Assembly: GCF_019972315.1 (NCBI RefSeq)
Contig: NZ_BLIZ01000001.1
Coordinates: 3,347,922 to 3,411,921 of the forward strand
DNA length: 64,000 nt
DNA from: Geobacter sp. AOG1
Lineage (GTDB): Bacteria; Desulfobacterota; Desulfuromonadia; Geobacterales; Geobacteraceae
Reading direction: 5' to 3'
Below, in pieces: positions 1-11,311 of the stretch (the stretch's first letter is position 1; each line of letters begins with the position of its first letter). A program made the translations under genes and the position numbers. The notes under the pieces were generated by a model. That model searched no databases. It saw nothing but the letters and a program-made list of their open reading frames with translations, and was not told the DNA's origin.

Positions 1-857
1 CTGCCAACGTGCTTATTTATGGAGAAAGCGGCACCGGCAAGGAACTGGTGGCCAGGACCATCCATCTGCTCAGCCCACGAAACAGGGCCGGCTTTGTCCC
101 CCTCAACTGTGCCGCCATCCCGGAAAATCTCCTGGAAAGCGAACTCTTCGGCCATGAGAAAGGTGCGTTCACCGGGGCAAGCCAGGCGCGACAGGGGAAA
201 TTCGAGCTGGCCAAAGGGGGAACCATTTTTCTGGATGAGATTGGCGAGATGCCGCCGCCTCTCCAGGCCAAACTGCTACGCGTCCTTCAGGAGCGGGTTT
301 TCGAGCGAGTGGGAGGCAGTCGGGAGATCAGGGCGGAGGTACGGGTGATAGCCGCCACGAATCGTGATCTTCAGGAAGAGGTGGCACAGCGGCGGTTTCG
401 TGAGGATCTCTACTATCGGCTGAACGTCTTTCCTCTCCAACTCCCCCCTTTACGGGAGCGGATCGACGCGCTTCCGCTCCTGGTTGATTACTTCCTGCAT
501 CGCTTCAGCCGTCAGATCGGCAAAAAGCTCAAGGGGGTCGAACCCGAAGCACTGACCGCGATGAAAACCTATCCCTGGCCGGGAAATATCCGTGAGTTGC
601 AGAATGTCATGGAACGGGGGGTGATCCTGGCCAAGGATTTCATCAGGCGCAGCAATCTTCCTGACGAAGTGGTGCGCAGCAACGGGCAGGAACCCCGCGA
701 GGGCAAGGACCTGCTGAAATCGGTGGAGAAGGAGATGATCGCCAAGGCCCTGCGCAAGCACGGGGGGAATCGACGTCTGGCCGCAACGGAATTGGGGATT
801 TCCCGCCGCACGCTCCAGTACAAGCTTAAAGAATTCGACCTGCTCGACGACAAGTAA
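1..857 (+). CDS. NtrC-family sigma-54-dependent activator (C-terminal part, cut by window start)
   Basis: The reading frame is open from the first bases of the window to a TAA at 855-857, so the N-terminus, with any receiver or sensor domain, is missing. The visible 284 residues begin inside the AAA+ ATPase domain. Walker A is GESGTGKE, the sigma-54 contact loop is GAFTGA, Walker B is near FLDEIGEM, and the R-finger region follows. A Fis-type helix-turn-helix ends the protein ([22 protein letters not shown]). Such proteins bind upstream sites as oligomers and remodel RNA polymerase-sigma-54 at -24/-12 promoters. A perfect palindrome and a -24/-12-like element lie just downstream, so it probably controls the five-gene exported-protein operon that follows. 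The signal it senses cannot be read from this fragment. Confidence 0.95.
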
Positions 858-881
858 CGGAGTGCAAAACCGTTCACAACA

Positions 882-899
882 GGTGCAAGAGCTTGCACC
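882..899. promoter_or_regulatory. Perfect palindrome, likely upstream activator site
   Basis: GGTGCAAG-AG-CTTGCACC has two exact 8-bp arms around a 2-bp centre. It lies 25 bp after the activator stop codon and about 75 bp upstream of a -24/-12-like element. No T-tract follows, so it is not a normal terminator. A second, weaker match starting GTGCAAAAC lies at 863. Position and symmetry fit an enhancer site for the Fis-type HTH of the adjacent activator. That role is inferred. Confidence 0.6.
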
Positions 900-973
900 A
901 AATTATCTTCAATATTTCCGTACCACAAGCATAAACATCATTAATATCGGCAAGTTATAATGCCGCAAGATTT

Positions 974-989
974 TGGCATGGACCGTGTA
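974..989 (+). promoter_or_regulatory. Candidate sigma-54 (-24/-12) promoter
   Basis: TGGCATG (the -24 element, matching the consensus) is followed at GG-N10 spacing by GTGTA in place of TTGCA. The -24 half is strong and the -12 half is weak. Transcription would start near position 1000, giving a short leader before the start codon at 1035. The adjacent NtrC-type regulator and palindrome raise its likelihood. Confidence 0.45.
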
Positions 990-1034
990 ATACTTCCTCC
1001 CGCAGCACAAAAACTTTTGGGGAGGAACACACCA

Positions 1035-1367
1035 ATGAAAAGATCCACCGCACTTTATGCAGTAACGGCCATCGCAGCTCTTTCTTTTGCCGGTCAGGCT
1101 TTCGCCAGGGGAGGAAGCATGGGAGGCGGCCAGGGCCATGGCAGCACGGGTGGCACTCATCAGATGGACTCGTCCATGCCCGCTGCCGCCGACAATGGCA
1201 TGCAACAGCGCACCATGCAGGGTAGCGGACCGGCTGCCGGATCCGGCCAACAGACCATGAAACAAGGCGGTTCCGGAACCAGCGGCGGCCATCAGACGGG
1301 GCAGACGCATGCAAGCGGCACGGGCGCGACGACAAAACAACAGCATGTCGCCGCGTCAACCAAGTAA
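1035..1367 (+). CDS. Small secreted Gly/Gln/His/Met-rich protein
   Basis: This 110-residue protein has a clear signal peptide (MKRSTALYAVTAIAALSFAG, cleavage near AFA-RGG). The mature part is low in complexity and rich in Gly, Gln, Thr, Ser, His and Met, for example GSMGGGQGHG and further GGHQ/GQTH segments. The start at 1035 follows GGAGGAAC at a normal distance. An in-frame ATG at 960 would add a non-signal-like extension across the promoter region and is rejected. No domain is recognised. It is the first gene of a run of five exported proteins on the same strand. The composition suggests a flexible periplasmic protein that may bind metal; this is inference only. Confidence 0.75.
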   Translation: MKRSTALYAVTAIAALSFAGQAFARGGSMGGGQGHGSTGGTHQMDSSMPAAADNGMQQRTMQGSGPAAGSGQQTMKQGGSGTSGGHQTGQTHASGTGATTKQQHVAASTK

Positions 1368-1399
1368 CTTCCACGCAGATGAAAAAAGGATACTCAGGT

Positions 1400-1483
1400 A
1401 TGCAAAAGTTTATGATGTTGATGTTGTTGTTGTTTGTTTTTGCATCATTGACCGGCTGTATGGGGATGATGCACGGGATGTAA
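1400..1483 (+). CDS. 27-residue methionine-rich lipoprotein
   Basis: A very short frame runs ATG 1400 to TAA 1481-1483, with AAGGA about nine bases upstream. The product starts with a charged residue and a hydrophobic stretch rich in Met, Leu and Phe, then a lipobox LTGC. Cleavage at that Cys would leave a lipid-anchored peptide of only eight residues, Cys-Met-Gly-Met-Met-His-Gly-Met. The order signal, lipobox, tiny Met/His tail is unlikely by chance in such a short frame. It lies 32 bp after the previous gene and 39 bp before the next, inside the exported-protein operon. The Met-x-Met-Met-His pattern resembles soft-metal ligand sets, but no function is proven. Confidence 0.7.
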   Translation: MQKFMMLMLLLFVFASLTGCMGMMHGM

Positions 1484-1522
1484 TGGCCCATTCGTAGTTT
1501 ATCAACACATCTGGAGTGACAC

Positions 1523-2062
1523 GTGGTGACCACAGGCCGCTTTTTTTCAATCATCGTTTGGGCAACCATTCTCAACTGCCTGCTGATCGGTACCGTCTTC
1601 GCCGGGTTTTTCGGCAGCGATGACAAGGGAAAAAGCGGCCTGGACTTTAACCGTGGGTACGACGTCAACACCGTAAGTACCATGTCGGGACGGGCGATTT
1701 CACTTCCCTACCCTGGGGAGAAGGAAAACATCATCGTCGAAATCAAGAGTGGTAACGAAACGTTTCACATCTATGTGGGACCGCACGCGTACTGGGAGAA
1801 GAAAGGAATCGTCATCAACTTGAACGACGAGATTACGGTCAAGGGCTCCAAAGCCCTGGGGCTCGACGGTAAATCCTATGTTTTGGCACAGAAGCTGGTA
1901 AACCGGACCACCGGCGCCCAGATGGAACTGCGCAGCGACAAAGGGGAACCCGCCTGGTCCGGAAGGAACACGAGCGGCATGCGGTCGGAGAGCCCTGCCG
2001 GAGGCATGAGAAACCAGGGTGGGGGCATGATGCGAGGCGGTGGCGGGATGATGCGGCGCTGA
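1523..2062 (+). CDS. Exported OB-fold-like protein with Met/Gly/Arg tail
   Basis: The 179-residue protein starts at GTG 1523 (GTG 1526 is also possible) behind TGGAG. It has a signal peptide of about 27 residues ending near VFA-GFF. Residues about 50-145 look like a small beta-barrel of the OB-fold type found in periplasmic proteins of delta-proteobacteria, with segments such as GPHAYWEKKGI, DEITVKG and a final GEPAW. The last 35 residues are repetitive (GGMRNQGGGMMRGGGGMMRR) with paired methionines. Like its neighbours it is exported and Met-rich at one end. The exact family was not identified. Confidence 0.75.
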   Translation: MVTTGRFFSIIVWATILNCLLIGTVFAGFFGSDDKGKSGLDFNRGYDVNTVSTMSGRAISLPYPGEKENIIVEIKSGNETFHIYVGPHAYWEKKGIVINLNDEITVKGSKALGLDGKSYVLAQKLVNRTTGAQMELRSDKGEPAWSGRNTSGMRSESPAGGMRNQGGGMMRGGGGMMRR

Positions 2063-2107
2063 TGCAGTTGCTGCCCGTGAACAGATGGGGAAGATAAGGA
2101 GATGAAC

Positions 2108-2968
2108 ATGGGAATTTCAGGAAAAATCGCTGCGGTAACCACCCTGCTGCTACTCAGTATGCCGGTCGCCGGTCGCGCTGAAGACAAGACGGCCTCGGTG
2201 GGACTCGGCTTCGAGTTCACGTCCGGGGACTATGGCACCGGTACCACAACTAATTCGGTCTTCATTCCGCTGACGGTCGAGGTCACTCCAACGGAGCGCT
2301 GGGGAGTCTCCCTGGAGGTCCCCTATGTCTATCAGAGCAATACCAATGTGATAGCGGGACAGTTCAGGCAGATGCAGGGGGGGACGATGACGGCGCAGGC
2401 AGTTGCGGCTGCGATGACCGGTTCGGGTTCAGGAATGGGCAGCGGCACCATCCGTTCAAGCTCCAACAGCAATCCGTCACAGGCACAAAGCGGCATCGGC
2501 GACGTTACGTTCCGGACAGGCTACGTCATCCTCAAGGAGGGGAATGCCATTCCCCAGATTCGTCCCAATCTCTTTGTTAAATTCCCCACCGCCGACAAGA
2601 ACAAAGGGCTGGGAACCGGGGAGTTCGACGAAGGATTTGCCGTGGAAGTCTCCAAGTGGTTTGGGGACTGGTATACGTTCATTGAACCCGGCTATACCAT
2701 CCAGGGAAAATCTCCTGACCTTGCCCTGAAGAATTACATGAGCTACAGCGCCGGCGCGGGCTACCAGGTCACCAATAATTTCCGTCCCATGTTCATACTC
2801 AAGGGAGCCACTGCGCCGGCTGACGGCTCATCGTCTCTTCTGGAAGCACGATTGAAGCTGAAATACCAGGCCACAAACCACACCGGGATCGAGGGCTATT
2901 TCGCCAAGGGGATCACCACGTCAAGCCCCGACTACGGCACCGGCCTGGCCGTTTTCTACGATTTCTAA
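2108..2968 (+). CDS. Outer-membrane beta-barrel protein (transporter-like)
   Basis: About 286 residues with an N-terminal signal peptide ending near GRA-EDK. The rest alternates polar and hydrophobic residues in short strands and ends in an aromatic residue (AVFYDF), as outer-membrane barrels do. Segments such as GDVTFRTGYV, PNLFVKFPTADK and LGTGEFDEGFAVEVSKWF resemble the broad porin/phenol-degradation-type barrel family seen in many Geobacter operons. A Gly/Ser/Met-rich loop (about residues 80-115) sits between strands. AAGGAG at 2096-2101 gives a normal spacing to ATG 2108; the in-frame ATG at 2102 directly abuts it and is less likely. It may form the outer-membrane component used by the neighbouring lipoproteins. 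Confidence 0.8.
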   Translation: MGISGKIAAVTTLLLLSMPVAGRAEDKTASVGLGFEFTSGDYGTGTTTNSVFIPLTVEVTPTERWGVSLEVPYVYQSNTNVIAGQFRQMQGGTMTAQAVAAAMTGSGSGMGSGTIRSSSNSNPSQAQSGIGDVTFRTGYVILKEGNAIPQIRPNLFVKFPTADKNKGLGTGEFDEGFAVEVSKWFGDWYTFIEPGYTIQGKSPDLALKNYMSYSAGAGYQVTNNFRPMFILKGATAPADGSSSLLEARLKLKYQATNHTGIEGYFAKGITTSSPDYGTGLAVFYDF

Positions 2969-3003
2969 CTACGTTCATACCATAAAGGTAAAGGAGTTGT
3001 GAC

Positions 3004-3858
3004 ATGAAAAAACTGATTTCACTACTTGGCTTGGTGGCAATCGGCATCACCACCGGGTGCGGCGGCAGTGGCAGCACCACCCAAACGACAGCCGTCAGCG
3101 GCGTCGTTGCCGACGGCTATCTTAACGGAGCAGAAGTATTCCTCGACAAGAATGGCAACTACCAGTGGGATGCAGGGGAACCGAAAACCACGACCGGCCC
3201 CGGCGGCACATACACCCTGATGGTGCCTGCCGCAGATGCAGCCAAGTACCCGGTCGTGTGCAGGGCAATTGCGGGAACCACCATTGACGAGGATACCGGT
3301 ACGACCGTATCCGGCAGCTATGTCATGTCGGCGCCGGCAGGTGCTACAGACTTTGTCAGCCCGATGTCCACTCTCATCCGGGAAAAGATGGCGGCAAATT
3401 CCGGCATGACCATGACCGATGCCATGACCCAGCTTCGAAACCAGCTTAACATGCCGACCGGCGTCTCTATGCTCGGCAATTACGTGGCCGGCTCCCAGGG
3501 AGGAGCAAACGCTGCCCCGTACCAAGCCATGCGCACAACAGCCCGGCAGATGGCGGGGCTCATGGCCGGACAAGCGGCGCTCGTCATGAATGGCAGCAGC
3601 GTAAACGTCAACCGCTACCGGGGCATGATGGGGACGATCAATACAAACATGCCCGCCATCTATGCGAATGCAACGAGCGGTTCAGGCATGAACAGTCCCT
3701 TCATGACCAGCATGCAGAACCTGATGCAGACGCAGTTGGCGGCCATGCCCATGTCCGGCGGGTTCATGAACTTCTCGGGGATGTTTCGCAACATGACAAG
3801 CCATCAGTATTTCTGGAATTACTCCGGCGGACAGATGCTACCCGGCAAAATGATGTGA
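3004..3858 (+). CDS. Methionine-rich lipoprotein with an N-terminal Ig/carboxypeptidase-regulatory-like domain
   Basis: The 284-residue protein has a signal peptide and lipobox (ITTGC, Cys19). Residues about 30-100 look like the beta-sandwich found in lipoproteins: VSGVVADGYLNGAEVFLDKN, a DxNxxxDxGE calcium-like loop and GGTYTLMVP. From about residue 115 to the end the sequence changes to a Met-rich, probably helical region. I count 29 methionines in the whole protein, 26 of them after residue 115. It is the last gene of the exported operon; a long bidirectional hairpin follows. Lipid anchoring and export are well supported. The job of the Met-rich part is unknown. Confidence 0.8.
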   Translation: MKKLISLLGLVAIGITTGCGGSGSTTQTTAVSGVVADGYLNGAEVFLDKNGNYQWDAGEPKTTTGPGGTYTLMVPAADAAKYPVVCRAIAGTTIDEDTGTTVSGSYVMSAPAGATDFVSPMSTLIREKMAANSGMTMTDAMTQLRNQLNMPTGVSMLGNYVAGSQGGANAAPYQAMRTTARQMAGLMAGQAALVMNGSSVNVNRYRGMMGTINTNMPAIYANATSGSGMNSPFMTSMQNLMQTQLAAMPMSGGFMNFSGMFRNMTSHQYFWNYSGGQMLPGKMM

Positions 3859-3922: not shown

Positions 3923-3973
3923 CACGAAAACGCCGTGGAACCTCGACATAAAAGGTTTCACGGCGTTTTCGTG
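3923..3973. terminator. Bidirectional terminator
   Basis: CACGAAAACGCCGTG pairs with CACGGCGTTTTCGTG, extended inward by AACCT/AGGTT around a short loop. The A-rich and T-rich parts of the arms serve both strands. It lies between converging genes ending at 3858 and 4006. Confidence 0.75.
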
Positions 3974-4707: not shown

Positions 4708-4734
4708 TCAGACAACAATTGAATAGCAGCATTT

Positions 4735-4835
4735 CTTATCTAGAGCGACCGAGGGACAGGCCCGGTGACGTCGCGGCAACCTCCCGTCAGGGAAGGTGCC
4801 AATTCCTGCGGAACCGAGAGGTTCCGGGAGATAAG
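4735..4835 (+). promoter_or_regulatory. SAM (S-box, SAM-I type) riboswitch aptamer
   Basis: CTTATCT (4735-4741) pairs with AGATAAG (4829-4835) to form P1. Between them are hallmark S-box segments: AGCGACCGAGGGACAGGCCC, then GTGACG...CGGCAACC, then AAGGTGCCAATTCC, then a hairpin GGAACC/GGTTCC. Together with the downstream attenuator and two sulfur amino acid genes this is a clear SAM-responsive leader, expected to switch transcription off when SAM is plentiful. Confidence 0.9.
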
Positions 4836-4863
4836 GGAGCGCGGATCACTTACGTAAGCTAAG

Positions 4864-4912: not shown

Positions 4913-6055
4913 ATGAAGATCGCAACTGAGACAGCACACATCGGGCTGGAGTGGGATACGCGGACCGGAGCCGTCACCGTCCCCATCTACCAGACCGCCA
5001 CCTTCCGCCATCCGGGGCTGGGCCAGAGCACAGGCTACGACTACAGCCGTTCCGGCAATCCGACCCGTCAGGCGCTGGAGGAGGGGATCGCCCGCCTCGA
5101 CGGCGGTGCGCGCGGCTTCGCCTACGCCTCGGGCATGGCGGCCATCACGAACCTCCTCTTCCTCTTCCAGCGGGGCGACCACCTGGTGGTGACGGAAGAC
5201 CTGTACGGCGGCACCTACCGTCTCTTCGAGCAGATATTTCCCCAGTACGGCCTGGAGTTCAGCTATGTGGACACCACCGACCTGGAAGCGGTGAAAAACG
5301 CCATCCGGCCGACCACCCGCGCCCTCTTCGTGGAATCCCTCACCAACCCGCTCCTCAAGGTCGCCGACATCGGCGCGCTGGCCACGCTCTGCCGGGAACG
5401 GGGGTTGCTTTGCATCGTGGACAACACCTTCCTCACCCCCTACCTGCTGCGCCCCTTCGATCTCGGGGCGGACATCACGGTCTACAGCGGCAGCAAGTAC
5501 CTGGCGGGACACAACGATACGGTTTGCGGCCTGGTCGTCGTGAAGGACCCGGTGCTGGCCGAACGGGTCTACTTCCACCAGAACTCGGCGGGTGCCGTGC
5601 TCGGTCCCCAGGATTCCTGGCTCACCATCCGGGGGATGAAGACCCTGTCGGTGCGCCTCGACCGGCAGCAGGAGAATGCCGGGAAGATCGCCGCCTGGCT
5701 GCGCAACCATCCCCAGGTCCGGAAGGTCTACTACCCCGGCTTTGCCGACCACCCCGGCCATGACATACTGAAGCGTCAGGGGAAGGGATTCGGCGCCATG
5801 ATCGCCTTCGAGGTGAACGAACCGGCCCTGGTGGAGCGGTTGCTTCTCCGGACGAAACTGATATCCTTTGCCGAGAGCCTGGGGGGTGTCGAGACACTCA
5901 TCACCTTCCCCTCCGTCCAGACCCACGCCGACATCGAGCCGGAAAAGCGCCACAAACTAGGCATCAACGACCTCCTCCTCCGGCTATCGGTGGGTATCGA
6001 GGACGTGCAGGACCTGATCGACGACCTCGACCAGGCATTTTCAACGGAGGAATGA
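4913..6055 (+). CDS. Cys/Met metabolism PLP-dependent enzyme (cystathionine gamma-synthase / lyase type), copy 1
   Basis: The 380 residues cover the full length of the family. The PLP lysine is K195 in SGSKYLAGHND. The substrate and phosphate contacts YDYSRSGNPTR and ASGMAA, and the late SLGGVETL motif, are all present. It works in the cytoplasm in trans-sulfuration or direct sulfhydrylation, joining or splitting homoserine esters, cysteine and homocysteine. Which reaction it performs cannot be decided from sequence. It sits 13 bp behind a SAM-controlled attenuator and 1 bp before a close paralogue, so both are repressed together when SAM is high. The pair could be a gamma-synthase plus a beta- or gamma-lyase, giving two steps from cysteine to homocysteine. 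Confidence 0.9.
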   Translation: MKIATETAHIGLEWDTRTGAVTVPIYQTATFRHPGLGQSTGYDYSRSGNPTRQALEEGIARLDGGARGFAYASGMAAITNLLFLFQRGDHLVVTEDLYGGTYRLFEQIFPQYGLEFSYVDTTDLEAVKNAIRPTTRALFVESLTNPLLKVADIGALATLCRERGLLCIVDNTFLTPYLLRPFDLGADITVYSGSKYLAGHNDTVCGLVVVKDPVLAERVYFHQNSAGAVLGPQDSWLTIRGMKTLSVRLDRQQENAGKIAAWLRNHPQVRKVYYPGFADHPGHDILKRQGKGFGAMIAFEVNEPALVERLLLRTKLISFAESLGGVETLITFPSVQTHADIEPEKRHKLGINDLLLRLSVGIEDVQDLIDDLDQAFSTEE

Positions 6056-6056
6056 C

Positions 6057-7193
6057 ATGAAGTTCGCAACCCAACTGATCCATGGCGGCCAGACCATCGA
6101 CCCGGCGACGGGCTCGCTGAGCCTCCCCATCTACCAGACCTCCACCTTCGCCCAGCAATCGGTGGACCATTTCGGCAAATACGACTACGCCCGCTCCGGC
6201 AATCCGACCCGGGAGGCGCTGGAAGAAGCGGTTGCCCGACTGGAAGGAGGAACCCACGGATTCGCCTTCGCCTCGGGAATGGCGGCCATCTCCTCAACCT
6301 TTCTCCTGTTCGCCCCCGGCGATCACCTGGTGGTCTGCGAGGACGTCTATGGCGGCACCTTCCGGGTACTGACCAGGCTCTTCAGCCAGTGGGGACTGGA
6401 GGTCACCTTCGTCGATGCCACAAACACCAACGCAATTGCCACGGCCATCCGGCCGGAGACGAGGGCACTCTACCTGGAGAGCCCTTCCAATCCCCTCCTG
6501 AAGGTCACCGACCTGCGCGAGGCAGCCGCCTTGGCTAAAGAGCACGACATCCTCACCATCGTCGACAATACCTTCATGACTCCCTACCTGCAACGACCGC
6601 TGGAACTGGGGTGCGACATCGTTCTCCACAGCGGGACCAAGTTCCTCAACGGCCACAGCGACGTGATCTGCGGCTTTGCCGTCGTCGCCGACCCCGATCT
6701 GGCCAAGCGGCTCGGCTTCATCCAGAACGGCTTCGGCGCCATCCTCGGCCCCCAGGACTGCTGGCTCGTGCTGCGCGGGCTCAAGACCCTCAAGATCCGG
6801 ATGGAGGAGAGCCAGGCCACTGCCCGCCGGGTCGCCCAATGGCTCGCGGAACAGCCCCAGATCTCCCGGGTCCTCTACCCCGGCCTGCCGGACCACCCGG
6901 GCCACGCCATCCACAACCGTCAGGCGGACGGTCCCGGCGCAGTCCTTTCCTTCGAACTGGCGAGCTTCGAGTTGACGAAGAAGCTGCTGGAGCAGGTGGA
7001 GCTGGCGGCCTTCGCGGTGAGCCTCGGCGGGGTGGAGAGCATCCTCTCCTACCCGGCCAGGATGTCACATGCCGCCATGCCACCGGCGGAGCGGGCTGCA
7101 CGCGGCATCAGCGACACCTTGGTCCGCCTGTCGGTGGGACTGGAGGACGCAGACGACCTGATCGCCGACCTGGGGAGGGTGCTGGCGGGATAG
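6057..7193 (+). CDS. Cys/Met metabolism PLP-dependent enzyme (cystathionine lyase / gamma-synthase type), copy 2
   Basis: The 378-residue paralogue of the preceding gene has the catalytic lysine at the same position (K195 in SGTKFLNGHSD). YDYARSGNPTREALE, FASGMAA and SLGGVESILSYP match family motifs. The SxGTKxxxGHSD form and the later SYPARMSHAAMP segment are common in cystathionine beta/gamma-lyases, so I lean to a lyase role with copy 1 as synthase. This is a tentative split. Translation is probably coupled, because the start follows the upstream stop by one base. Confidence 0.9.
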   Translation: MKFATQLIHGGQTIDPATGSLSLPIYQTSTFAQQSVDHFGKYDYARSGNPTREALEEAVARLEGGTHGFAFASGMAAISSTFLLFAPGDHLVVCEDVYGGTFRVLTRLFSQWGLEVTFVDATNTNAIATAIRPETRALYLESPSNPLLKVTDLREAAALAKEHDILTIVDNTFMTPYLQRPLELGCDIVLHSGTKFLNGHSDVICGFAVVADPDLAKRLGFIQNGFGAILGPQDCWLVLRGLKTLKIRMEESQATARRVAQWLAEQPQISRVLYPGLPDHPGHAIHNRQADGPGAVLSFELASFELTKKLLEQVELAAFAVSLGGVESILSYPARMSHAAMPPAERAARGISDTLVRLSVGLEDADDLIADLGRVLAG

Positions 7194-8783: not shown

Positions 8784-10304
8784 TTACAGGGTGAAAAAGG
8801 GGGCATGATTGGAAGTAAAGAGGGGGGGATCGCGTCTCAGGATGGAAGCGACGGCGGGGTCGCGCCTGAATTCGCGGGACAGGAACCGTCGCACCTGCTG
8901 CCGGTCCCACCCCTGGGGATGGCGAAACCCGGTATAGAGGGAGAGGTCCGCCTCGTAGAACGGTTCGGTATCGTATGCGGCTGATTCATCCCCGCAGACC
9001 GGCATGTTGAAGATCGCCAGGTTGAGGAAACCGATGGAGTCCCGGTGCCGGACCACGAACTCTAGGGTCCGCCGCGCTGCCGGTTCCGTTTCCGCAGGGG
9101 TACCGAACAAGAGATAGAGATACACCGCGATCCCCGCCTCCCGCAGGTTCGCCAGCACCCGTGACGCCATCCCCACATCGATCCCTTTCCGCAGCCGATC
9201 CAGCACCCCCTGGTCACCCGATTCCAGCCCGAGCTTGAGCATGACGCACCCCGAGCGCTTCAGAGCCCGGCAGAAATCGGCATCCGCCAGTTCCTCCCCG
9301 AATCGGGCGAACCCGTACCAGGGGGCCGGCAAGGGGGAGTCGATCAACCTGCGCAACAGCGCCGGGCTGATGGCGTTGTCCAGGAGATGGATGAGGGCCG
9401 GCCTCGTTTCTGCGGACAGGGTCTGCAGGTCGTCCAGCACCTCTCCCACGGGGACGGGATGGTACCGGTTCCCCTCGGCCCGTTCGGGGCAGAAGGAACA
9501 GTCGTTCCAGTAGCAGCCGCTGGCGGCGCTGTAGGGGAGGATGAAGCCGGGGGAGAGGTAGGCGTCCAGCGGCAGGGGGATGTAATCGGGGGGAACATGC
9601 TGCCGCCCCGCCCCGTCGACGCCGAACAGTTTCAGCAGAGGAACTTCCCCCGCTCCCGCAACCAGGTGATCCACGAGACCGCCAAAGGGGTTGCGCCAAC
9701 CGGGGCGCTTCATCCACGATGTCACCAGCCCGCCGCCGATAACGATGATGAGTCCGGGGAACCGCTGCCGCAGGTACCCGATCATGGCGAAGGTGCACAA
9801 CGCCTGCCCCAGGTAGTTGAGGGAGAAGCCGACGACCCGGACCGCCCCACCGTGCAGGTTATCCAGCAGTTCCGGCAGGCGCGTGCTGAAATAGGGGTAG
9901 AAGGGATTCCGGTCGGGATGCTCCGCCGCCGCGAGCAGGTCGGCGCTCCGGAGGGGGGAGAGGCGGGGATGCTCATAGTCCGAAAGCCCCACGACGGCAC
10001 CGCTTTCCCGGGAGGAAACGGCGAGGACCCGGTTCACATCGCTCACCGCCCTGGCGTAACGGTCGGGGGAGCCGTAGGTCCGGGGGTCCCGCAGGGCGGC
10101 GATATTGTTCGAAACGTTTTTCAGCGCCCGGCGGCTCCAGGTGTCGTCCGCAACCTGTGGCCGCTCCAGCAGGTAAAGGAGCCCTTCCAGGTTGGCGTCC
10201 AGCATCCGGCAGGGGATGCCGTGGGCACGAAGCACTGCCGAAAGTTGTGCAATGCCGGCCGGCGGTTCGCACGGCTTGGCAACGGGTGGCGCGATAAGGA
10301 GCAT
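8784..10304 (-). CDS. Radical SAM protein with B12-binding-like N-terminus
   Basis: About 506 residues. The N-terminus MLLIAPPVAKPCEPPAGIAQLSAVLR is typical of B12-binding radical SAM proteins, followed by an Rossmann-like region (VVGFSLNYLGQ, IIVIGGG). The cluster motif is CYWNDCSFC (C-x4-C-x2-C), then helix and strand signals of the SAM barrel (LKLGLESGDQGVLDRLRKG, GIAVYLYLLFGTPAET). The frame is open upstream to GTG 10427; GTG 10355 has an AAAGGA behind it and is a possible start. I chose ATG 10304 because homologues normally begin there, although no clear ribosome site is visible. Substrate unknown. It is divergent from the hydrolase at 10442. Confidence 0.85.
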   Translation of the reverse strand: MLLIAPPVAKPCEPPAGIAQLSAVLRAHGIPCRMLDANLEGLLYLLERPQVADDTWSRRALKNVSNNIAALRDPRTYGSPDRYARAVSDVNRVLAVSSRESGAVVGLSDYEHPRLSPLRSADLLAAAEHPDRNPFYPYFSTRLPELLDNLHGGAVRVVGFSLNYLGQALCTFAMIGYLRQRFPGLIIVIGGGLVTSWMKRPGWRNPFGGLVDHLVAGAGEVPLLKLFGVDGAGRQHVPPDYIPLPLDAYLSPGFILPYSAASGCYWNDCSFCPERAEGNRYHPVPVGEVLDDLQTLSAETRPALIHLLDNAISPALLRRLIDSPLPAPWYGFARFGEELADADFCRALKRSGCVMLKLGLESGDQGVLDRLRKGIDVGMASRVLANLREAGIAVYLYLLFGTPAETEPAARRTLEFVVRHRDSIGFLNLAIFNMPVCGDESAAYDTEPFYEADLSLYTGFRHPQGWDRQQVRRFLSREFRRDPAVASILRRDPPLFTSNHAPFFTL

Positions 10305-10441
10305 GGCCCCATTATGCGTGATGCACAACGCCATGGCAAGGGGATTGGCCCGCACCGCATTTTCATCCTTTATTTCTCCAGCATAACCGGTATGATGGGA
10401 GAAAGCGCCGCCAGGAACATTCCCCACGAGGGCCCGCCCCC

Positions 10442-11311
10442 ATGAACCCGAGAAGAATCATGACCATCCTGCTGCTGACCGTCCTCCTCGTCCTCCTCGC
10501 CCGCTGGCGCGTCGGCCGGCTCTTCTATTACCCGGACCATGTCAGCTACGGCACGCCGGCCGATGTTGGTCTCAAATACGAAGAGGTCACCTTCCCGAGC
10601 AGGGACGGGACCAGGCTCACCGGCTGGTTCGTGCCGGCGGTCGGCCCGGCCCACGGCACGGTCATCCATTTTCATGGCAATGCCCAGAACATGTCCGCCC
10701 ACTTCGGCTTCGTAAACTGGCTCCCCGCGGCAGGCTTCAACCTGTTCGTCTTCGATTACCGCGGATACGGCAAATCGGCCGGCAGACCGGACCGGCGCGG
10801 CCTGTACGAAGACTCCCTGGCCGCCCTCGATTACATCCGGACGCGAAAGGACCTGGACCGGGACCGACTGGTGGTTCTCGGCCAGAGCCTTGGGGGTGCC
10901 CAGGCCATAGCCGCCGTCGGCGGCGGCAACCGGTCCGGCGTCAAGGGGGTGGCCATCGAATCCACCTTCTTCTCCTACCGGGAGATCGTCCGCGACAAGA
11001 TCGGCGACATCCCCCTCCTCTCTCTCCTCAAAACGCCCCTCGCCCGGCTTCTCATGGACGACGACCTGAGTCCCGCAAACGCCGTGGGAAAAATCGCCCC
11101 CATCCCGCTCCTCCTCGTCTACGGAACCTCTGATCCGATAATCCCCTATGACCACGGCACCCGGCTCTTTGCCCTGGCGCGGGAGCCGAAGCAGTTCTGG
11201 ACCATCGACGGCGGAGAGCATACGGAAGCCTTCATCGAAACAGGCTCCCCCCATCGCCTGCGGCTTGTCGCCTTCTTCCGGGAGACAGTGGGCACGCGTA
11301 AAGGCAATTGA
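10442..11311 (+). CDS. Alpha/beta hydrolase (BEM46/YfhR-like), membrane-anchored
   Basis: The 289-residue protein begins with one hydrophobic segment (residues about 7-20, LLLTVLLVLLA), likely a membrane anchor. The fold follows: HFHGNAQN oxyanion loop, FDYRGYGKS, nucleophile S149 in GQSLGG, acid near GTSDPIIP and His near GEHTEAF. This is a complete triad in a DUF/BEM46-type serine hydrolase. Substrate unknown; such proteins often act as esterases at the membrane. The gene is divergent from the radical SAM gene, and a palindromic repeat begins 19 bp after its stop. Confidence 0.9.
   Translation: MNPRRIMTILLLTVLLVLLARWRVGRLFYYPDHVSYGTPADVGLKYEEVTFPSRDGTRLTGWFVPAVGPAHGTVIHFHGNAQNMSAHFGFVNWLPAAGFNLFVFDYRGYGKSAGRPDRRGLYEDSLAALDYIRTRKDLDRDRLVVLGQSLGGAQAIAAVGGGNRSGVKGVAIESTFFSYREIVRDKIGDIPLLSLLKTPLARLLMDDDLSPANAVGKIAPIPLLLVYGTSDPIIPYDHGTRLFALAREPKQFWTIDGGEHTEAFIETGSPHRLRLVAFFRETVGTRKGN

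Follow-up and report, generated by a model that had tools for sequence, protein, structure and literature searches.

A methionine-rich exported-protein operon of Geobacterales, a probable Cu(I)/Ag(I) envelope accessory to CusCBA controlled by a ZraSR-like sigma-54 switch

A stretch of 64,000 nucleotides from Geobacter sp. AOG1 (contig NZ_BLIZ01000001.1, positions 3,347,922 to 3,411,921 of the forward strand; hereafter the window) opens with the end of a regulator gene, followed by five genes for exported proteins. We consider that this unit, together with a sensor kinase gene just upstream, is probably an operon dedicated to protecting the envelope against Cu(I)/Ag(I), which would act as an accessory of the CusCBA efflux pump under the control of a ZraSR-like sigma-54 switch. 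Its gene order, its regulatory sites and the positions of its methionines are conserved among relatives, many of which carry it close to an orthologue of the pump subunit CusA; the specificity for copper and silver we infer from sequence.

Gene order and regulatory sites

The genome consists of one contig of 3,677,207 bp, and the window begins within an NtrC-family regulator gene. The C-terminal 284 amino acids are encoded at positions 3..857 on the plus strand; the remainder lies upstream on the contig, the full 449-residue gene occupying positions 9430-10779 of stretch L002. Directly upstream of it, outside the window, is a gene for a sensor kinase of 411 amino acids (L002 8192-9427). An earlier reading, made from the letters of the window alone (the sequence-only reading), had lacked the sensor part of the activator. 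This is supplied by the kinase gene, and the activator is a complete response regulator with a sigma-54 activator domain and a Fis-type helix-turn-helix.

The same reading had described a palindrome, a -24/-12-like element at 974-989 and five genes for exported proteins including an outer-membrane barrel, and all of these were recovered in place. The perfect palindrome GGTGCAAGAGCTTGCACC (882..899), a predicted response-regulator binding site, has its core GTGCAA-N4-TTGCAC at 883-898 and is preceded by a degenerate copy, GTGCAAAACCGTTCAC (862..877, no strand assigned). The sigma-54-type -24/-12 element TTGGCATGGACCGTGTAAT, which we place at 973..991 on the plus strand, has its GG 76 bases after the palindrome core. 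Five genes follow on the same strand. Gene 1 (1035..1367) encodes an exported low-complexity Met/His-rich protein of 110 amino acids with a signal peptide. Gene 2 (1400..1483) encodes a lipoprotein precursor of 27 amino acids (34 if the start is at 1379), whose predicted mature part, CMGMMHGM, has the eight residues, four Met and one His that had been claimed. Gene 3 (1523..2062, GTG start) encodes an exported protein of 179 amino acids with an oligonucleotide/oligosaccharide-binding (OB) fold, and ends in the paired Met noted before (GGMMRGGGGMMRR). Gene 4 (2102..2968) encodes a predicted outer-membrane beta-barrel of 288 amino acids (Phenol_MetA_deg, PF13557) with a Met-containing insert, and gene 5 (3004..3858) a lipoprotein of 284 amino acids with a beta N-terminal domain and a Met-rich helical C-terminal domain. 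A 21-bp hairpin at 3923..3973 on the plus strand (-36.6 kcal/mol, z -7.9; none of 200 shuffles equally stable), with no T-run after it, is the likely end of the transcription unit.

Of 141 Geobacterales genomes 99 gave a gene 3 homologue, and gene 5 homologues were found in 34 of the 58 genomes searched, the source genome being included in both counts. We mapped 63 stretches: the window locus, 34 around gene 5 matches and 28 around gene 3 matches. Since they were chosen for these two genes, the locus counts given here are co-occurrences and not frequencies in nature. Strong gene 3 orthologues (E 1e-43 or better) occupy 55 places in 51 genomes, and the regulator stands beside 53 of them, one of the two exceptions lying near a contig end. 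These 53, with one locus holding a weaker gene 3 (L070), form the 54 core loci. The gene order that the sequence-only reading had proposed as a linked system recurs widely, with kinase, regulator and genes 3, 4 and 5 all together in 45 of the 54; gene 5 is absent from the fetched stretch in eight, three of which (L107, L117 and L119) end near gene 4. A gene 3 profile matched 73 of 395 genomes of the phylum, Geobacterales among them, with E values of 1e-10 or lower. Beyond the order the best match reached 4.7e-41, most were far weaker and many contained in-frame stops, so we read these as members of a wider OB-fold family. Two irregular arrangements were seen: in G011 (L039/L004) two tandem sets, with a gene 4 fragment match and gene 5, lie near CusA with no gene 3 match, perhaps a partial duplication, and at L058 7915-8804 the gene 5 matches are split over two successive short reading frames.

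The regulatory sites are conserved with the genes. Among 55 loci with the regulator, 50 carry 11 or 12 of the 12 core bases of the site (perfect in 30), and by eye many show a degenerate first half-site upstream of the palindrome (uncounted). Of these loci, 98% keep the GG of the -24 part, and the TG at -12 is retained in 96-98%. The distance from site to GG is 74-77 bases in 47 of the 55 and 65-67 bases, about one helical turn less, in five; the remaining three (L044, L049 and L119) gave poor promoter matches in that scan. GTG(G/A/T) at -12 is a conserved departure from the sigma-54 consensus, given as TGGCAC-N5-7-TTGCT in PMC12316311. Across the window's genome the exact core of the palindrome was found a single time. 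A search allowing one mismatch returned four places, versus five in a backward control, so that only the exact site is informative in this genome.

A combined site-and-promoter pattern was found in 49 of the 141 genomes versus none in the backward control, in most cases before the Met-rich operon. Among the exceptions, it stands just before the kinase in G021, before a glycine-rich lipoprotein gene in G001 (L187, 7089 onward) and a gene for a similar protein in G025 (L185), and before a separate gene 1/gene 2 pair in G071; in G043 (L181, C23) the site lies just after CusCBA and a YtkA-like gene. The lipoprotein of G001 and G025 looks glycine-zipper-like by eye, and in G001 the kinase gene follows. 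Directly before CusCBA in the G043 locus stands the gene for a related regulator (45% identity), itself preceded by the terminal part of a kinase gene. Matches to the site in G111 and G118 we take to be chance, and the G111 stretch around the site matched none of the query proteins. Further site matches lie in G064 (C4, near 195,000) and G005 (C92).

The periplasmic part of the kinase gave a sub-threshold sCache match and contains two near-invariant His residues (H82 in 98% and H140 in 100%, n=51). CusS, according to PMC10100754, detects periplasmic copper by a domain with His and Met ligands, a precedent which makes H82 and H140 of interest without thereby showing that they bind copper.

Linkage to the Cus pump

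In many relatives the unit follows a block of genes on the same strand for CusC, CusB, CusA and YtkA-like, GerMN, cytochrome c'-like and DUF302 proteins, the completeness of which varies. A same-strand CusA at least 80% identical to that of locus L056, from a relative, is found in 20 of the 54 core loci; 25 have some Cus subunit at 40% identity or more, and the number rises to 33 when any of the four companion genes is counted as well. By whole-genome coordinates, a CusA orthologue is found no more than 16 kb away from 23 of the 55 gene 3 orthologues, and these represent seven genera. The number expected was 0.44 (1.04 CusA per genome, 4.2 Mb assumed), which gives a binomial tail of ~7e-34 if relatedness is ignored.

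The linked pump resembles Cu(I)/Ag(I) exporters. CusA of L056 scored 1050 bits against E. coli CusA versus 629 bits against the Zn pump ZneA, and three of its Met align with Met of the E. coli protein that we take to form the metal site. The window's own genome has an orthologous Cus block, with CusA 91% and CusB 86% identical to the query proteins. Its last matched gene encodes the cytochrome c'-like protein, and in several relatives this gene lies shortly before the kinase. For Geobacter sulfurreducens, PMC7726332 notes four RND systems and no CusF.

Properties of the exported proteins

The sequence-only reading had counted 29 Met among the 284 residues of gene 5, 26 of them in the last 170, and our recount agrees. 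Whether such a content is ordinary was assessed in 92 mechanically called open reading frames (ORFs) of at least 120 amino acids, taken from five stretches of the same genome, two of which were picked for heavy-metal pumps, the genome's own Cus block being included by choice. Gene 5, at 10.2% Met, ranks highest of the 92 (mean 2.8%, standard deviation 1.55); exported-like ORFs of the sample average 3.4% (n=27, standard deviation 2.1). The YtkA-like protein of the Cus block ranks second, and the four highest 170-residue windows belong to gene 5 and then to the YtkA-like protein, CusA and CusB. The Met content of gene 5 is thus not ordinary in this genome, and the proteins nearest to it in the sample belong to metal efflux. 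Across 49 copies with the regulator or gene 3 nearby the median is 9.6%.

Many of these Met occupy fixed positions. In gene 5, M183, M208 and M209 are present in 32 of 32 aligned rows, M176 and M187 in 94-97% and M234 and M241 in more than 90%; from their spacing, several of the conserved Met would lie on one face of a helix. The structure model combines a beta N-domain with a helical C-domain (mean predicted local distance difference test score (pLDDT) 82.9). The lipobox Cys, C19, is present in all 32 rows, lipidation being predicted. Orthologues gave weak matches, mainly to CarboxypepD_reg (18 of 32).

Gene 2-like genes were found in 20 of the 54 core loci and at one trans locus, 24-122 bases before gene 3 in the former; the very short lipoprotein, like the operon, recurs in other genomes. 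Each predicted mature part has seven or eight residues: CMGMMHGM, CMGMMHGI, CMGMMHWI, CMGMWHPM, CMGMWRPM, CMGMMHMW, CCMLHPMW, CCMLHPM, CCMMHPMW and CCGLHHIW. Nearly all contain both Met and His, one lacking His and the CCGLHHIW type lacking Met. The search demanded a lipobox but left room for as many as 40 residues behind it, so that the uniform mature length is a result, whereas the presence of the lipobox is not. In the window, lipobox and Cys were recognized by eye and lipidation is predicted. Two DNA patterns for gene 2 matched 10 and 8 of the 141 genomes and nothing in a backward control, and 17 of the 18 matches lie directly before gene 3.

The position and size of gene 2 would also suit a translated leader that regulates the downstream genes rather than an envelope lipoprotein, an explanation compatible with the proposed role of the operon. 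We think this unlikely. The Met/His mature end of seven or eight residues recurs across genera, and the eight CMGM-type sequences, in which C-M-G-M is fixed, show synonymous changes in their Cys and Gly codons and in that of the lipobox Gly; Met has a single codon, so its fixed positions prove little alone. Furthermore, in the exceptional genome G071 (L145, C20, 912-1530) the peptide CMGMMHPM, found by a pattern demanding the CMGM letters, is encoded with a gene 1-like protein away from genes 3-5, under a site and -24/-12 element of its own. A CusA orthologue lies ~13 kb from this pair on the same contig. We tentatively suggest, giving it somewhat less than an even chance, that gene 2 belongs to a family of peptides of only 7-8 residues, made on ribosomes and then lipidated, that serve as membrane-anchored soft-metal ligands. 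With the products of genes 1 and 3-5 it would form a relay for metals in the outer envelope, external to the Cus pump. This octapeptide lipoprotein is most likely the part that would surprise a specialist.

Gene 1 has a positional equivalent, by simple rules, in 32 of the 54 core loci; its sequence is strongly variable and of low complexity, with Met reaching 18.6% of the mature part. The SilE protein, encoded beside SilCFBA, is described in PMC5008109 as disordered, rich in His and Met with repeated MxxH/HxxM motifs, and folding in the presence of Ag. It shows that metal sponges of this kind exist beside Sil pumps. Gene 1 shares with SilE and PcoE its export, its low complexity, its Met/His content and, in relatives, a place near a Cus-type system, but it matched no SilE or PcoE model in the Pfam and NCBIfam scans, and its sequence varies strongly, with Met-poor versions that carry Cys in five of 32 loci.

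The gene 3 model is an OB fold (mean pLDDT 75.7), with most of the core above 90 and a low-confidence tail in which the Met pair M176 and M177 is kept in 94-97% (n=34). One of 34 orthologues gave a weak Peptidase_M23 match. Gene 4 passes the PF13557 gathering score, and among four PDB sequences matched by its profile FapF was the sole named family (best E 2.8e-4 over 56 positions). No Pfam or NCBIfam family reached its curated cut-off for genes 1, 2, 3 and 5, and nothing in PHROGs matched genes 3-5.

Proposed function and alternatives

In the mechanism that we propose, the membrane kinase would detect excess soft metal in the periplasm through its small sensor domain and phosphorylate the adjacent NtrC-type regulator. 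The regulator would then bind GTGCAA-N4-TTGCAC, ~76 bp upstream of the -24/-12 promoter, and fire sigma-54 RNA polymerase, resulting in a flood of Met-rich exported ligands from genes 1-5. Gene 1 would supply a low-complexity sponge like SilE, gene 2 a Met/His octapeptide anchored by lipid, gene 3 an OB-fold protein whose tail bears the Met pair, gene 4 a barrel in the outer membrane and gene 5 a helical lipoprotein rich in Met. In E. coli the residue after the Cys decides lipoprotein sorting, and under this rule the products of genes 2 and 5 would go to the outer membrane. The ligands may bind Cu(I)/Ag(I) at the outer membrane or close to it, and either hold the metal or pass it on for export, an outer-envelope buffer for soft metals that would work alongside CusCBA.

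The closest precedent is CusCFBA-CusRS of E. coli. Homologues of CusA, CusB and CusC are linked to the unit in relatives, and both systems have a sensor kinase with a periplasmic domain. The exported gene 3 product may parallel CusF, an OB-fold protein with a Met/His/Trp metal site. By contrast, the conserved Met of gene 3 lie in the tail, and CusF was not among the matches listed for the gene 3 profile against PDB sequences or in the fold searches, a result by which it is not excluded. The regulator also differs, being of NtrC type with sigma-54 dependence predicted, whereas we take CusR to be of OmpR type, and Met-rich exported proteins and the octapeptide are added.

Several observations weigh against an operon dedicated to Cu(I)/Ag(I) and tied to the pump. 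Twenty-one of the 54 core loci, the window locus included, have no Cus link within the fetched stretch (some lie on short contigs), and the genome's own Cus block is ~230 kb from the operon. A single genus (g13) accounts for thirteen of the 23 CusA-linked places. Many genomes for which no gene 3 orthologue was found also have a CusA orthologue; as CusA is thus more widespread than the operon, the latter is an optional module. The YtkA-like neighbour matched no NCBIfam model. Seven copies of gene 5 without the regulator or gene 3 nearby have 2.1-10.2% Met and are mostly Met-rich, so a high content is typical of the operon and not exclusive to it. Gene 2 was not found by the lipobox search in 34 of the 54 core loci, and gene 1 is Met-poor (1.1-2.9%) in five of 32 loci, all five with 1-3 Cys. 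Fold searches were unspecific: the best hit for gene 3 was PriB (Z 9.0), which indicates a general OB fold alone, and gene 5 matched nothing in the PDB (best E 0.09). Finally, the -12 part is mostly GTG(G/A/T) and not TTGC, the C at its final position being missing in 95% of the 55 loci.

The unit might instead serve a general envelope-stress or divalent-metal response like that of ZraSR (HydHG)/ZraP, with Zn or protein misfolding as the signal. Here too a membrane kinase and a sigma-54 regulator are encoded beside an operon for exported proteins (an arrangement we take to hold for ZraP), and upstream sites for the regulator before this adjacent operon, a ZraSR-type feature, are predicted from the DNA. 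Of the NCBIfam models, ZraS fits the kinase best (237 bits); for the regulator AtoC leads with 458 bits, and ZraR, at 374 bits, is among the top models. However, these scores are far under the curated cut-offs of 479 and 760 bits, no ZraP was matched in the Pfam and NCBIfam scans, the target genes are others and the linked pump is of CusA rather than ZneA type. We judge this explanation quite unlikely.

A little less probable still is an oxidant sink, in which surface Met would be sacrificed to hypohalous acid or other oxidants and repaired by methionine sulfoxide reductase, with the kinase sensing oxidative damage. Met is a major target of oxidation, and Met-rich disordered exported segments generally suit such a role. 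Nevertheless, those recurrent neighbours that could be identified encode Cu(I)/Ag(I) efflux proteins (no search by name was made for sulfoxide reductases), many of the Met stand at fixed positions and are not bulk, and the sequence tests, none of them aimed directly at this role, gave it no support. Secretion of fibrils or matrix, with the barrel as a FapF-like exporter and genes 1 and 5 encoding surface fibre or matrix proteins that perhaps bind metal, is highly improbable, as the weak profile match of gene 4 to FapF is set against an NCBIfam FapF score of 18.2 bits (cut-off 700, and by that cut-off not FapF) and no other fap model matched any of genes 1-5 with an E value of 1 or less.

The Cu(I)/Ag(I) accessory operon thus remains our preferred explanation. 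That the window holds a linked envelope system for soft metals with a dedicated sigma-54 activator, as the sequence-only reading had proposed, is supported by the synteny, the single genomic site, the site-promoter module and the CusCBA linkage. The unit resembles a Cus/Sil accessory with a ZraSR-like switch, but it falls below the ZraS, ZraR and FapF cut-offs and has no OmpR-type regulator. Searches of open-licence PMC papers gave no account of this operon among the papers listed, subscription papers being outside the search.

Genes on either side of the operon were also inspected. A SAM riboswitch (RF00162, 93.9 bits) lies at 4733-4837 on the plus strand, before tandem paralogous genes (4913-6055 and 6057-7193) that resemble, by eye, pyridoxal-phosphate-dependent genes of the methionine pathway; this block adjoins the Met-rich operon and there is no sign of a shared role. 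Some 7-20 kb upstream of the window (L003 and L002 1-3000), we recognized by eye proteins with multiple CXXCH motifs, likely multihaem cytochromes, a peptidyl-prolyl isomerase-like protein and a barrel-like protein. A NirA-like reductase and ThiS/ThiF genes upstream were rejected as members of the system, no match being shown in the 39 stretches searched.

If the proposal is right, metal-reducing bacteria have a Met-rich defence layer against soft metals in the envelope under sigma-54 control. Gene 2, if it is indeed a membrane-anchored ligand, would lay a dense Cu(I)/Ag(I)-binding layer of Met and His on an envelope membrane at minimal cost. The operon would add a class of lipoprotein genes of ~25-27 codons that are easily overlooked in annotation. 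It also turns two matters into directly testable questions: the handling of Cu(I)/Ag(I) by anaerobic metal reducers beyond the inner membrane, and the minimal length at which a bacterial lipoprotein can still function.

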